From NCBI RefSeq assembly GCF_002837275.1, contig NZ_NXIF01000039.1:1-40011 (forward strand): a stretch of DNA of 40,011 bases, written 5' to 3'. Numbering within the stretch: position 1 is the stretch's first letter; each line of letters opens with the position of its first letter. This document shows positions 33,391-39,537 of the stretch, piece after piece. Made by a program: the position numbers and the translations under genes. This DNA comes from Malaciobacter halophilus. Its GTDB lineage: Bacteria; Campylobacterota; Campylobacteria; Campylobacterales; Arcobacteraceae. Below the pieces are notes generated by a model that made no database searches, was not told the DNA's origin, and was given only the letters and a program-made list of their open reading frames with translations.

Positions 33391-34127
33391 GTGAAAAAAA
33401 TTCTATTAATAACAATCTTAACATTTTTAACACTAAGTGCAAATAACAAAATAGACTCATTTAGCACTGCAAAAAGGTATATGAAAAAAGTATATAAAAG
33501 TCATCAAATTACTTTTTATGCAAAATGTAAATATAACTATAAAGACAAAAATAATATGATAAATAGAAACTCTTGTGGTTATAAACCAAGAAATGAATAT
33601 ACAAAAAGTGGAAAAATAAATAAAAGAGCAAGAAGAATTGAATGGGAGCATGTAATTCCTGCTGAGAACTTTGGAAGAGGATTTAAGTGTTGGTCTTTAG
33701 GAGATGAGCAATGTATCAAAAAAAACAACAAAAGCTACAAAGGAAGAAGATGTTGTAGTAAAGTAAATCAAAAATTTAAACTTATGCAAGCAGATATGCA
33801 TAACTTAGTACCTGCAATAGGAGAGTTAAATGCCATAGGTCAAACTTTAAATATATGCAAATTCCAGGAGAAAAAAGATATTATGGAAAAAATATTGATT
33901 TTGAAGTTGATTTTAAAAGAAGATGGGTAGAGCCAGCAGATGATATAAAAGGAGATATTGCAAGAACATACTTCTACTTTGAAAAAACATACGGTATGAA
34001 AATATCTAAACAACAAAAAAGATTATTAACAATATGGGATAAAAATGATCCTGTTGACAATTGGGAAAGAGAGAAAAATAACTTAATTTATAAATATCAA
34101 GGAAATAAAAACCCTTTTATAAAGTAA
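33391..34127 (+). pseudogene. Endonuclease I (EndA/Dns family), disrupted by a -1 frameshift
   Basis: The first part (33391-33840, about 150 residues) is a clear endonuclease I: signal peptide, then RRIEWEHVIPAENFGRG (His-Me finger) and MQADMHNLVPAIGELNAI. The rest is in another frame (33840-34127): RSNF, IPGEKRYYGKNIDFEVDFKRR, GDIARTYFYFEKTYGM, SKQQKRLLTIWDKNDPVDNWE, GNKNPF, matching the usual C-terminus. Joining them needs one extra base near 33837, between ATA and GG. In the natural frame the first part runs on for about 30 unrelated residues. There is no long homopolymer at the site. The start is GTG with AAGAAG upstream. EndA-type nucleases are secreted or periplasmic and cut DNA non-specifically. 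Confidence 0.8.
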
Positions 34128-34252: not shown

Positions 34253-34738
34253 ATGTCTTTTAGTACTGCAGATATATGTGATGATTTTAAGGATAAACAC
34301 AAAATTCAAGTATTATCACCAAAATTTAAAAATTATGGAAAAAAAACTCTATTTGAAGGTGAAGTAATCACTGTCAAACTAGATAAAAGTAATTGGCTAC
34401 TACTTTCTATGTTAAGAGATGAAAGAGGAGATGGAAAAGTAGTTGTTGTAGATGTAAATCAAGAGTTTTACGGTATAGTTGGAGATAGATTAATGGCATT
34501 TGCTAAAAAAAACAACTATGAAGCTATTATTATTAATGGCTACGTAAGAGATACAAACGAAACAAAAAATATTGATGTTGGACTACTTGCAATAGGTACT
34601 TGTCCACAAAGAAACTTCGATAAAACTGAAGGTTCAAGAGATATTGAACTTAATTTTGAAGGGGTAAATATAAAAAGTGGTGATTATATTTATGCTGATT
34701 GTGATGGAGTAATTATCACTAAAAATAAACTTGTATAA
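34253..34738 (+). CDS. rraA: RraA-family protein (RNase E inhibitor fold / HMG aldolase-like)
   Basis: A 161-residue RraA-fold protein: MSFSTADICDDF start, GKVVVVDV then GIVGDRLMAFAKKNNYEAIIINGYVRDTNETKNIDVGLLAIGTCPQR, the family core. The NGYVRD segment is shared with 4-hydroxy-4-methyl-2-oxoglutarate/oxaloacetate aldolases of the fold. In E. coli RraA binds RNase E. Known Campylobacterota (C. jejuni, H. pylori) use RNase Y and RNase J and lack RNase E, so that role is doubtful here and a metabolic or other protein-binding function is more likely. The gene is monocistronic with its own promoter and ends at the palindromic terminator shared with the beta-carbonic anhydrase. Confidence 0.85.
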   Translation: MSFSTADICDDFKDKHKIQVLSPKFKNYGKKTLFEGEVITVKLDKSNWLLLSMLRDERGDGKVVVVDVNQEFYGIVGDRLMAFAKKNNYEAIIINGYVRDTNETKNIDVGLLAIGTCPQRNFDKTEGSRDIELNFEGVNIKSGDYIYADCDGVIITKNKLV

Positions 34739-34765
34739 AAGACTCTTATTTTAAAGAGTCTTTTA
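34736..34765. terminator. Bidirectional palindromic terminator between rraA and beta-carbonic anhydrase
   Basis: Arms TAAAAGACTCTT (34736-34747) and AAGAGTCTTTTA (34754-34765), loop of 6 nt, perfect. The left arm begins with the rraA stop TAA, and the beta-carbonic anhydrase stop (34746-34748) lies at the junction of arm and loop. The arms give A-run and T-run flanks on both strands, so termination in both directions is likely. Confidence 0.75.
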
Positions 34766-35393
34766 ATTGTTCAAACTTTTCAGTTTTGTTATTATAGTAT
34801 GAGATTGAACCATCTTCAATCTTATAATACCATCCATGAATTTGTAAACTTTTATCTTCTACTTTTCTTTTTATTTCTGGGTATGTTAATAGATTTTTCA
34901 ATTGATACACAATTGAGCTTTTTTCTGTTTTTTTATATATCTCTTCAGCAGGTAAATCTAAATAGTTATTTAATACATAATTTTTTGCTTTTTTACCTAA
35001 TTGTAACCATTTTTTTACATGAATTAATCCAATCTCTTCATCATCAATCTCTTTATATAAAGCTCTACAAGCTCCACAATGAGAATGACCACAAACAATT
35101 ATATGTTTTACATTTAATACACTAACAGCAAACTCAATTGCAGCAGAACTTCCATGAAACTCATTATCTGCTTCAAAAGGAGGAACAAAATTACCCACAT
35201 TTCTTAAAATAAACATATCACCAGGGTTTGAATCCATTATTAAATCAGGAACAACTCTACTATCACTACAACCAATAAATAAAACTTCAGGACTTTGTCC
35301 TTTTTCAACTAAAGAGTTAAAATCATCTTTATAATCATTAAACCTTGAACTTTTAAACGTTAAATTACCTTGTACTAACTGCTCATATCCCAT
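34746..35393 (-). CDS. Beta-carbonic anhydrase
   Basis: A 215-residue beta-class carbonic anhydrase. Zinc and catalytic residues are visible: C42, D44, R46 in IGCSDSRV, and H103, C106 in CGHSHCGAC. It interconverts CO2 and bicarbonate in the cytoplasm. I chose the ATG at 35393 (SD AAGGAG, six-base gap); a TTG six bases upstream is in frame but touches the ribosome binding site. It starts only 10 bp after the biotin carboxylase stop on the same strand. Such an arrangement would deliver bicarbonate for the carboxylation. The enzyme ends at the terminator shared with the rraA gene. Confidence 0.93.
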   Translation of the reverse strand: MGYEQLVQGNLTFKSSRFNDYKDDFNSLVEKGQSPEVLFIGCSDSRVVPDLIMDSNPGDMFILRNVGNFVPPFEADNEFHGSSAAIEFAVSVLNVKHIIVCGHSHCGACRALYKEIDDEEIGLIHVKKWLQLGKKAKNYVLNNYLDLPAEEIYKKTEKSSIVYQLKNLLTYPEIKRKVEDKSLQIHGWYYKIEDGSISYYNNKTEKFEQLKDSLK

Positions 35394-35403
35394 AATCAAC
35401 TCC

Positions 35404-36855: not shown

Positions 36856-36912
36856 GATTTTTCCTATAAAAAATTTATTTTTATTTTAAAGTTATAAAAA
36901 ATTTTTTTCTTC

Positions 36913-37000
36913 CTCTTTTTTGCTAGTTTTATTGTCTATTTTTGCTAATTATAATGTTTATATGTGCTTAGAATATATTTTATTTTTGCTAAAATATATT
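36913..37000 (+). repeat. Four 22-bp direct repeat units before the AraC/GyrI-type gene
   Basis: Units begin at 36913, 36935, 36957 and 36979. Units 1, 2 and 4 share TTTTTGCTA exactly (36917, 36939, 36983); unit 3 is diverged (TATGTGCTT at 36961). The period of 22 bp is two helical turns, and the last unit holds the -10-like TAAAAT of the downstream gene. The same TTTTTGCTA block also occurs before other genes, so these may be tandem promoters as well as operators. Confidence 0.6.
36990..36995 (+). promoter_or_regulatory. -10 box of the AraC/GyrI-type regulator gene
   Basis: TAAAAT in context TTTTTGCTAAAATATATT, six bases before the ATG at 37002 and with no Shine-Dalgarno between. It suggests a leaderless transcript, as at 10848. 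Confidence 0.45.
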
Positions 37001-37001
37001 T

Positions 37002-37877
37002 ATGAAAAAAGATACTTTAAAAAAAAGAGTAAAAATAGCAAACAATATAATGTATTATATTTATACACATATTGATACGCATATTGATATTGAAGAGCTA
37101 AGTTATGATTTACAAATAAGTAAATTTCATATGCATAGAGTTTTTAAAGAAGCCTTTGGTAAAAACATATATGAAAGTATAAAATCAATAAGACTTCAAA
37201 AAGCTGCAAATCTTCTTCTTACTAATAAATACTCAACAATCTCAAATATTGCAAATTTGTGTGGATATAGTTCTCAATCATCTTTTATAAAAGCTTTTAA
37301 ACAAAGATTTGAAATGTCTCCTAAACAATGGAGAAACTATGGATATAAAGAGTACTCAAATAGAATATTACAGCAATCAAAAAGTGCCTTAAAATCAAAT
37401 GCTGACTTTAAAGAATTAACTTTTGAAATTGTAAAAATGCCAATTATGGAGAGTTTTTATATTAGAAATAAAGGGTATAACAAGAATGTAAAAGAGACAT
37501 GGCAAAAATTACAAACTCTTATTTTAAATAACAATTTAAAAAACTATAAACAAATTGCTCTACTTCATGATAATCCAACAATCACTCCTTTAAATGAATG
37601 CCAATATATTGCTTGCATAGTTCCTGAAAACAGAAGTGATGTAAATAGCGATAGATTACCAAAATTTAATATCTCAGATGGTGTTTATGCAAAATTTAAT
37701 CTTGAAGGTGAACATGGAGATATGTTAAAATTTATTCACTGGGTTTATCATGAGTGGCTTGTAAATAGTGAATATGAAACTACTACAAAACCATCTTATG
37801 CAATATATAATAAAAACAACTTTTTAAGTAAAGATAATAGATTTAATATTAGTTTTTATGTATCTATCAAATTTTAA
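37002..37877 (+). CDS. AraC-family regulator with GyrI-like effector domain
   Basis: A 291-residue regulator of the Rob/MarA-like type. The N-terminal ~115 residues hold two helix-turn-helix motifs: DIEELSYDLQISKFHMHRVFKEAFG and STISNIANLCGYSSQSSFIKAFKQRFEMSPKQWR. The C-terminal ~160 residues resemble GyrI-like small-molecule binding domains (EIVKMPIMESFYIRNKGYNKN ... HGDMLKFIHWVYHEWLVNSEYETTTKPSYAIY). Such proteins respond to xenobiotics or cellular metabolites. No Shine-Dalgarno is seen and TAAAAT lies six bases upstream, so it may be leaderless. The 22-bp repeat array directly upstream could be its own operators. Divergent from biotin carboxylase. Confidence 0.88.
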   Translation: MKKDTLKKRVKIANNIMYYIYTHIDTHIDIEELSYDLQISKFHMHRVFKEAFGKNIYESIKSIRLQKAANLLLTNKYSTISNIANLCGYSSQSSFIKAFKQRFEMSPKQWRNYGYKEYSNRILQQSKSALKSNADFKELTFEIVKMPIMESFYIRNKGYNKNVKETWQKLQTLILNNNLKNYKQIALLHDNPTITPLNECQYIACIVPENRSDVNSDRLPKFNISDGVYAKFNLEGEHGDMLKFIHWVYHEWLVNSEYETTTKPSYAIYNKNNFLSKDNRFNISFYVSIKF

Positions 37878-37902
37878 AATAGAACCTAAGTTCTATTTTA
37901 AA
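37873..37902. terminator. Bidirectional palindromic terminator after the AraC/GyrI-type gene
   Basis: Arms TTTAAAATAGAAC (37873-37885) and GTTCTATTTTAAA (37890-37902), loop CTAA, perfect 13 bp. The stop codons of the regulator gene (37875-37877) and of the TlpA gene (37893-37895) are both in the stem. Confidence 0.7.
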
Positions 37903-38462
37903 CTATCTTTTATATGAGTTATAAGACTTTGTTCATCAACTAAGCCAACATACTTTTCTAAAAACTTTCCATCTTTTCCATATAAAAATGATTCTGGAAC
38001 TCTTTTTACATCATCAAAGTTTTTTGCCATTCTAAAATTCTCTTGTTCATTAATAGTAACAGGAAATTTCATATTATATTGTCTAAGAAATTCAGCTAAA
38101 GCTTTCATATCTTTATTTTTTTCATATAAAACACCTATTATTATAAAGTCATCTTTATATTTTTCATATACTCTATTAAACATAGGAATCTCTTCTTTAC
38201 AAGGAGGACACCAAGTAGCCCAAAAATTAATTAATACAACTTTATTTTCTAAATCTTTTGATGTTAAAGTATCGTTTTCAACAGTTAATTTGATTGTTTC
38301 ACCTGTTGCTGTTTCTAAACTATATGTCTTATTACCCTGTTTTTTTAACTCTTTAAAGCTCTTTGAGTCTTTAATAACAACTGCTTGTGCCTCATCTTCT
38401 TCTTGGCAACCTGTGAAAATTAAAGCCAATACAATCATAAAAAATAGATAGATTTTTTTCAT
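37893..38462 (-). CDS. TlpA/ResA-family thiol-disulfide lipoprotein
   Basis: A 189-residue thioredoxin-fold lipoprotein: signal peptide with lipobox IFTGC, then an AhpC/TSA-like redoxin domain with the active site FWATWCPPCKEE and the cis-Pro block KRVPESFLYGKDGKF. TlpA/ResA proteins reduce disulfides in the periplasm, for example in cytochrome c or copper-protein maturation. The gene is last of a three-gene minus-strand set after dsbB-like and dsbA-like genes (9 bp gap), which places it with periplasmic thiol handling. The ATG has GGGAAAAAG upstream. It shares a palindromic terminator with the AraC gene. Confidence 0.9.
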   Translation of the reverse strand: MKKIYLFFMIVLALIFTGCQEEDEAQAVVIKDSKSFKELKKQGNKTYSLETATGETIKLTVENDTLTSKDLENKVVLINFWATWCPPCKEEIPMFNRVYEKYKDDFIIIGVLYEKNKDMKALAEFLRQYNMKFPVTINEQENFRMAKNFDDVKRVPESFLYGKDGKFLEKYVGLVDEQSLITHIKDSLK

Positions 38463-38471
38463 CTTTTTCCC

Positions 38472-39116
38472 TTATTCAAATATTTCTTTTTCTACTAAAT
38501 CAAAAAAAGCTTTATAGCTTAAAGTCTCTAACTCTTTACCATTTACAAAAAAGCTTGGTGTTCCTCTTACATTTAAAGTAGTTGCATCCTCGTAATCTTG
38601 CTTTAATATTTGACTAATATCAATAGCTAAAAAATCTTTTTTTAGTTTTTCCATATCAAGTCCTGCTTGAGGTAAATATTGCCAAACTAACTCTGGCTGA
38701 GGATCAGCTTGATTTGACCACTTTTCTTGATATTTAAATATTACGTCTAAAGTTTGTTTATATTTATCTTGTGCTCTTGAAGCTTCTAGTATCTTAATAA
38801 TATACTCTGAGTTATCATGACTTGCTAAATATCTTACAACTAATTTTACATCTTTGTAATACTGTTTTAAAATATCATTAACAACTGGATGAAATAGCTT
38901 GCAAGAGATACACTCAGGGTCCATAAACTCTACAATTACAACATTTGATTTATTTTCACCAAATGTTACAGAATTTTCCCTTACAAATGGTGCTTTATTC
39001 ATATTTTTAAAACTTTTTAAACTATTTTCTTGATTTGTTTTATAAAAATATGATGCTGTAAAAAAAGCAACTACAACTATTACAATAGAAAAGAGTACTA
39101 ATTTTTTATTTTTCAT
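38472..39116 (-). CDS. DsbA-family thioredoxin-fold protein
   Basis: A 214-residue protein anchored by one N-terminal helix (about 4-24, VLFSIVIVVVAFFTASYFY). The DsbA-like fold has active site CISC in FMDPECISCKLFHPVV and the cis-Pro block NVRGTPSFFVNG. It lacks a lipobox and probably stays membrane-tethered or is cleaved as a signal. It should oxidise substrate thiols in the periplasm and be re-oxidised by the DsbB/BdbC-like protein encoded immediately upstream, whose gene it overlaps by 11 bp. The CxxC sequence is unlike classical DsbA CPHC, and resembles BdbD/thioredoxin_4 types. Confidence 0.9.
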   Translation of the reverse strand: MKNKKLVLFSIVIVVVAFFTASYFYKTNQENSLKSFKNMNKAPFVRENSVTFGENKSNVVIVEFMDPECISCKLFHPVVNDILKQYYKDVKLVVRYLASHDNSEYIIKILEASRAQDKYKQTLDVIFKYQEKWSNQADPQPELVWQYLPQAGLDMEKLKKDFLAIDISQILKQDYEDATTLNVRGTPSFFVNGKELETLSYKAFFDLVEKEIFE

Positions 39117-39537
39117 CTTTACATAAACCTTTTTTGCCTAAGTATAACAAAATTAAGATTGTACTATAAGCAAATAGAGATAAAAGAGGTATTGTAATAA
39201 AACCAAACCAATTAATATACTCTGTACTACAAGGTACACCTTGAACACAAGGAACTACACTTTCTGGAATTATTCCAAACATCAATAGATTGTGATAAAA
39301 AGCTATTATCCAACCTACTATAACTAAACCAATTGAGTATTTAAATAGTTTATCATCTGGATATAGAAGTGCCACTAAAAATATAATTACTAAAGGATAC
39401 ATAAATATTCTTTGATACCAACACATTGAGCAAGGAATAAACTGCATAACTTCACTAAAAAAAAGACTTCCTAAAGTTGCTATTAAAGCCACTAGGAAAC
39501 ACAAGAAAACAATCGTAGAACTGATTTTACTATTCAC
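39106..39537 (-). CDS. DsbB/BdbC-family disulfide-bond formation membrane protein
   Basis: A 143-residue, four-TM protein of the DsbB/BdbC family. The first periplasmic loop has CSMCWYQRIFMYP (CxxC), and the second has CVQGVPC, the second Cys pair. These pass electrons from the DsbA-like partner to quinone. The start is GTG with AGGA seven bases upstream. It is the first gene of the dsbB-dsbA-tlpA set, overlapping the DsbA-like gene by 11 bp, so translation is coupled. Confidence 0.9.
   Translation of the reverse strand: MNSKISSTIVFLCFLVALIATLGSLFFSEVMQFIPCSMCWYQRIFMYPLVIIFLVALLYPDDKLFKYSIGLVIVGWIIAFYHNLLMFGIIPESVVPCVQGVPCSTEYINWFGFITIPLLSLFAYSTILILLYLGKKGLCKDEK

Follow-up and report, generated by a model that had tools for sequence, protein, structure and literature searches.

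A phased array of 22-bp repeats, putative operator units of an AraC/GyrI-type regulator, between two divergent promoters at a PycA-like carboxylase locus of Malaciobacter halophilus

Results

Genes and promoters at the locus

The window, that is, the whole 40,011-bp stretch of Malaciobacter halophilus DNA that we analyzed (contig NZ_NXIF01000039.1), contains an AraC-type regulator and a biotin carboxylase that diverge from a 146-bp intergenic stretch (Table 1). The regulator matches HTH_18 (PF12833, 3.5e-20), PF00165 (7.7e-17) and the GyrI-like family (PF06445, 4.7e-19) in Pfam, and its predicted fold (pLDDT 90) retrieves STM3175 (7r3w), Rob (1d5y) and SbmC (1jyh) in Foldseek. The tandem HTH of about 100 residues that marks the AraC/XylS family is found by both Pfam and the predicted fold, and the C-terminal domain is GyrI-like, as in Rob-type proteins, with a TM-score of 0.83 to SbmC by target length. 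Both domains are strongly conserved, including the cysteines of the GyrI domain. We do not class it as a Rob orthologue, as the regulator scores 63.2 bits against the NCBIfam RobA equivalog, far under its cut-off of 380. The closest named relative, at 86%, is from Arcobacter sp. CECT 8985.

Table 1. Positions of genes, putative operator units and predicted promoter elements in the window
Feature	Position	Strand	Basis or remark
Beta-carbonic anhydrase	34746..35399	-	Pfam Pro_CA 1.6e-48; directly behind carboxylase
Biotin carboxylase, PycA-like, 483 aa	35404..36855	-	Pfam/NCBIfam; divergent, candidate target
-10 TAAAAT of divergent carboxylase promoter	36883..36888	-	Sequence; AATTNTAG block conserved
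GAAGAA at -35 position of divergent carboxylase promoter	36907..36912	-	TTCTTC on +; conserved in orthologues
Putative operator unit 1 (distal)	36909..36925	+	Sequence; TGCTA core 36921-36925
Putative operator unit 2	36931..36947	+	TTGTCTATTTTTGCTA; nearest of the units to the family consensus
Putative operator unit 3 (diverged copy)	36953..36969	+	TGCT core 36965-36968 unbroken; conserved at -37 in orthologues
Putative operator unit 4 (proximal)	36975..36991	+	Merges with the regulator's extended -10
Extended -10 of regulator promoter	36987..36995	+	TGCTAAAAT; 6 nt before ATG at 37002
Regulator, 291 aa	37002..37877	+	AraC-type HTH residues 37-112; GyrI-like small-molecule domain 141-274

The genome encodes two biotin carboxylase paralogues beside one PycB/OadA-like protein, and since the more distant of the two (49% identity) is taken as AccC, the divergent one is most plausibly a PycA-like second paralogue; it does not reach the NCBIfam cut-offs of the pyruvate carboxylase equivalogs. 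Because only a 4-bp gap separates them, the carbonic anhydrase probably forms one operon with the carboxylase, for which it would provide bicarbonate. An RraA-like/aldolase protein (34253-34738, plus strand, PF03737) adjoins these two genes and is a conserved neighbor in the genus. The RraA-like/aldolase family includes oxaloacetate decarboxylases, and a kinship with these would fit the metabolic theme of the locus.

On the regulator side, the extended -10 recurs near the ATG in 61 of the 72 distinct upstream regions of the pycA clade (the clade of this regulator), mostly 5-7 nt from the ATG, and a leaderless or nearly leaderless regulator message is therefore likely. The element resembles the sigma-70 consensus described for Epsilonproteobacteria, TGxTATAAT with periodic A/T (PMC3656092). 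A further TATAAT at 36950-36955 (plus strand), directly after unit 2, may provide the regulator with a second start site. On the opposite strand, alignments anchored on TTCTTC place the AATTNTAG block 18 bases beyond it, a distance that is fixed across orthologues; we read this GAAGAA-18-TANAAT arrangement (GAAGAA-18-TAAAAT here) as a predicted divergent promoter. The pair is kept even where the divergent gene is a different one. Its -10 has no TG extension, while the regulator's own -10 has one.

Four units at a strict 22-bp period

The initial annotation had described three copies of TTTTTGCTA and one diverged copy at a strict 22-bp period, the last unit ending at the -10 of the regulator gene, and both statements hold in the sequence: the copies start at 36917, 36939 and 36983, the diverged copy at 36961 retains its TGCT core, and TGCTAAAAT occupies 36987-36995. 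The TGCT cores begin at 36921, 36943, 36965 and 36987, so that they lie exactly 22 bp apart, about two helical turns, on one face of the DNA. Self-match of the 146-bp intergenic stretch at lag 22 is 0.53, higher than in any of 1000 dinucleotide shuffles, while against the same shuffles no other lag between 8 and 44 stands out; three copies of TTTTTGCTA were likewise seen in 0 of 1000 dinucleotide shuffles. Tandem Repeats Finder calls a 22-bp array at 36917-36991. The four-unit pattern has a single perfect match in the window, and when three units are sought with as many as two mismatches allowed, this intergenic locus is the sole match in the 2.75-Mb genome.

On the strand of the carboxylase, the units approximate TAGCA(C/A)-WAAT-ARA-N-AA, in which an A-box and a B-box are separated by roughly one turn. 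Unit 1, TAGCA...GAGGAAGAA on the minus strand, points toward the carboxylase and spans its -35 position, with its center at -40 from the transcription start predicted from sequence. MarA-type proteins acting as class II activators occupy sites between -36 and -55 (PMC12052159), and unit 1 is a forward site overlapping the -35 within this range, as measured from the predicted start. At the other end, unit 4 is not distinguishable from a plain extended -10.

Conservation across relatives

Orthologues of the regulator were drawn from 60 related genomes and from a species-representative collection. Relative to the ATG, TG(C/T)T recurs in their upstream regions near -15, -37 and -59, with TTCTTC ahead of these. 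Absence of the period from orthologues would have counted against the reading of the initial annotation; in an anchor-free test of 65 non-redundant orthologue upstreams, 22 bp is the dominant period (z=20 at lag 22, z=12 at lag 44 and no value higher than about 4 elsewhere), and it is kept in Arcobacteraceae, Sulfurimonas and Sulfurovum. No 22-bp excess was present in 208 control upstream regions of other genes on the same contigs. At least two units were found in 59 of the 72 pycA-clade upstreams, against 5.8% of shuffles and 4 of the 208 controls, and three units in 40 of the 72, against 0.06% of shuffles and a single control. Most other genera have three units and the window's genus four; in the latter, TTCTTC is shifted by exactly 22 bp, so that the difference amounts to one whole extra unit. 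Arrays are degenerate at some Sulfurovum loci (L072, L082, L092).

Several AraC-GyrI paralogues (L102, at G000:C26:8947; L103, at G000:C75:6321; and L105-L109) have shorter versions of the array of their own and also start close behind a -10, and L102 appears to be divergent from an aminotransferase gene. Phased self-operators seem, from these sequences, to occur throughout the AraC-GyrI family.

The gene divergent to the regulator is a biotin carboxylase at 36 loci from several families. Elsewhere it is oadG (oxaloacetate decarboxylase/PycB group), which can replace a carboxylase that is not adjacent, with the array, or a gene for a 228-aa protein; a divergent aminotransferase goes with a separate regulator clade. 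We rejected oadG/PycB as a general target, as the array is found there only when the gene is divergent to the regulator, and in the window's genus oadG has no array. Genomes such as G010, G007 and G027 keep the regulator and the array, with the 228-aa protein divergent, and have no such carboxylase, and the carboxylase is therefore not the sole target. The 228-aa proteins form an all-helical family (L115; G022:C1:378848-379626) encoded divergently to the regulator or with a copy of the array of their own, and no match was found for them in Pfam or NCBIfam, nor in the PDB by fold search.

The array at carboxylase genes located elsewhere

In four genomes (G018, G025, G015 and G031), the PycA-like gene lies remote from the regulator, and its promoter bears the array in a like arrangement. 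We searched with a profile trained on regulator promoters alone, scored 150 candidates per genome, and assigned matches to genes by comparing coordinates; the profile targets arrays, and single isolated sites would escape it. It matched the remote carboxylase promoters at 8e-10 (G018), 1.4e-5 (G025), 0.0019 (G015) and 0.006 (G031). All other matches below 2e-3, across 14 genomes, fell in promoters of the regulator, of its paralogues, and of a lineage-specific neighbor gene in G022 encoding the 228-aa protein. Among the weaker matches listed for the window's genus, those examined lay within genes, except at promoters of paralogues, and the search of the window's genome found no array upstream of the AccC paralogue. 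A genome scan with the single site TTNTYTATTTKTGCT was set aside, as chance matches in AT-rich DNA were too many to name more targets.

Array and regulator travel together at the carboxylase: all 8 genomes with a regulator of this clade show the array at the carboxylase promoter, against 0 of the 9 genomes lacking one, in which the carboxylase is present at 67-81% identity. G016 was placed among the latter, its best relative being a member of the aminotransferase clade; in both G016 and G055, other AraC-GyrI relatives are present and the carboxylase has no array. For the four remote carboxylases alone, the comparison is 4/4 versus 0/9 (Fisher about 0.0014), a value that is indicative, since related genomes are not fully independent. 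Since these remote promoters retain two or three units although no regulator gene diverges from them, the inner units probably matter for the carboxylase as well.

Discussion

Comparison with known systems

The arrangement recalls several characterized systems. At araC/araBAD, a regulator is also divergent from a metabolic operon, with spaced direct repeats between them. AraC, whose direct-repeat half-sites lie about 21 bp apart, represses itself and activates the operon. Unlike AraC, the regulator studied here has its HTH at the N-terminus, the order of domains being reversed, and a GyrI-like effector domain, and its three to four units form one run, with no looping indicated. XylS at the Pm promoter binds tandem direct repeats with an A box (TGCA) and a B box and loads stepwise next to polymerase (PMC5481539). 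Tandem repeats with box A (TAGCA in the window) and box B are shared with our array, whereas XylS has two 15-bp repeats and a different effector domain, and here the promoter of the regulator itself shares the array.

E. coli Rob, MarA and SoxS are alike in having a GCA core and a forward site over the -35, and Rob has the same order of HTH followed by a GyrI-like domain. The units agree with the marbox (GCAnnWWnTGnnAAA) at 6-8 of 10 positions; we do not class them as marboxes, as only GCA is clearly common and the remaining positions agree at 4.0 of 7 versus 3.7 in shuffles. To our knowledge, marbox sites have not been described as phased arrays. STM3175 (7r3w), the Salmonella albicidin resistance protein, is the best fold match (E 3.6e-16) and likewise combines an HTH with GyrI; however, it has 19% identity to our regulator and is named for antibiotic resistance, and we know of no metabolic array for it.

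A proposed mechanism and its alternatives

Considering the promoters, the relatives and the remote carboxylases together, we think it very probable that the four units form an array, placed between two divergent promoters, to which the neighboring AraC/Rob-type regulator binds, controlling both the carboxylase and itself. We infer binding of the regulator to the conserved 22-bp direct repeats, the sign of its effect on either promoter, cooperativity and the effector along the following lines. A protein bound at the regulator end would cover the extended -10 from which its own gene is transcribed and shut that promoter off, while one bound at the carboxylase end would cover the -35 in the class II position of AraC/MarA-type activators and activate transcription, with the inner units aiding the side-by-side loading of proteins. 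The array would be switched by the GyrI domain as it senses a small molecule linked to pyruvate or oxaloacetate supply. Activation of the carboxylase with repression of the regulator would be the simplest reading of this geometry. The opposite sign, with the regulator repressing the carboxylase, activating its own gene, or both, is a variant that overlaps with our preferred explanation and appears somewhat unlikely: position leaves the sign unproven, as sites over the -35 can also block polymerase, but the forward placement of the distal unit at -40 is the usual activating one in the MarA/Rob group, and the TG extension that the regulator's own -10 possesses is missing from the divergent -10.

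Could the array instead serve autoregulation only, as phased self-repression, with the divergent carboxylase a bystander? The initial annotation had proposed an operator array with probable autoregulation, and comparison across genomes bears this out, as the array tracks the regulator and its paralogues regardless of the divergent gene, several genomes having no such carboxylase. Restricting its role to autoregulation is nevertheless improbable in view of the four genomes with an array at a remote carboxylase promoter and the nine genomes without the clade regulator in which carboxylase promoters have none; control of the biotin carboxylase, earlier put forward with a "perhaps", is thereby strengthened. 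The same co-occurrence bears on whether the sites belong to another protein, e.g. a nucleoid protein or a paralogous regulator. Although cross-talk is conceivable, given the AraC-GyrI paralogues with similar arrays in the genome, the array at the carboxylase goes with this regulator clade and not with paralogues (G016, G055), and we regard such an assignment as quite improbable.

The initial annotation offered a ladder of T-tract promoters as an alternative; taken as a ladder of T-tract or extended -10 promoters with several start sites, this reading does not survive the comparison and is in our view very improbable. It draws on the phylum's sigma-70 consensus with its periodic A/T (PMC3656092), on unit 4 being an extended -10, and on the TATAAT that follows unit 2 (36950). 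Yet the 22-bp period is not a general promoter feature, because the 208 control upstreams show none; of the four units, just the proximal one falls on a promoter element, and at the remote carboxylase the units recur while the promoter -10 lies outside the array.

Implications

The locus looks like a metabolic switch for pyruvate carboxylation that is conserved in Campylobacterota; its parts are known and their layout is a variant. GyrI domains are known mainly as multidrug or antibiotic sensors. It is possible, and we suggest tentatively, that here the domain has turned into a central-metabolite sensor (for pyruvate, oxaloacetate, bicarbonate or the like), that a phased multi-protein array sets two promoters oppositely, and that one 22-bp unit was inserted in the window's genus with the phase unbroken. 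In the open-licence literature, we found no regulator of pyruvate carboxylation reported from Arcobacteraceae, Sulfurimonas or Sulfurovum, no paper tying AraC-family proteins to pyruvate carboxylase in Arcobacter or Sulfurimonas, and none on AraC with GyrI in Arcobacter; the locus points to a previously unreported candidate switch for an enzyme between pyruvate and oxaloacetate. Evolution has in effect run a natural test of trans-regulation, where the carboxylase moved and the sites moved along. With a regulator that comes with its putative sites and main candidate target, pyruvate-to-oxaloacetate control becomes testable in an environmentally important phylum, and a family usually annotated just as "AraC family, GyrI-like" gains a candidate function. 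The array is also a compact natural one in which the number of units varies by whole helical repeats.

Two further features of the window may be recorded. The endonuclease I gene (33391-34127, plus strand) is broken into two overlapping frames that match successive parts of the PF04231 profile; this would be a frameshift, real or an assembly error. Convergent with the regulator, genes for TlpA-like, DsbA-like and DsbB proteins follow in a row (37893-39537, minus strand) and form a disulfide/redox cluster.
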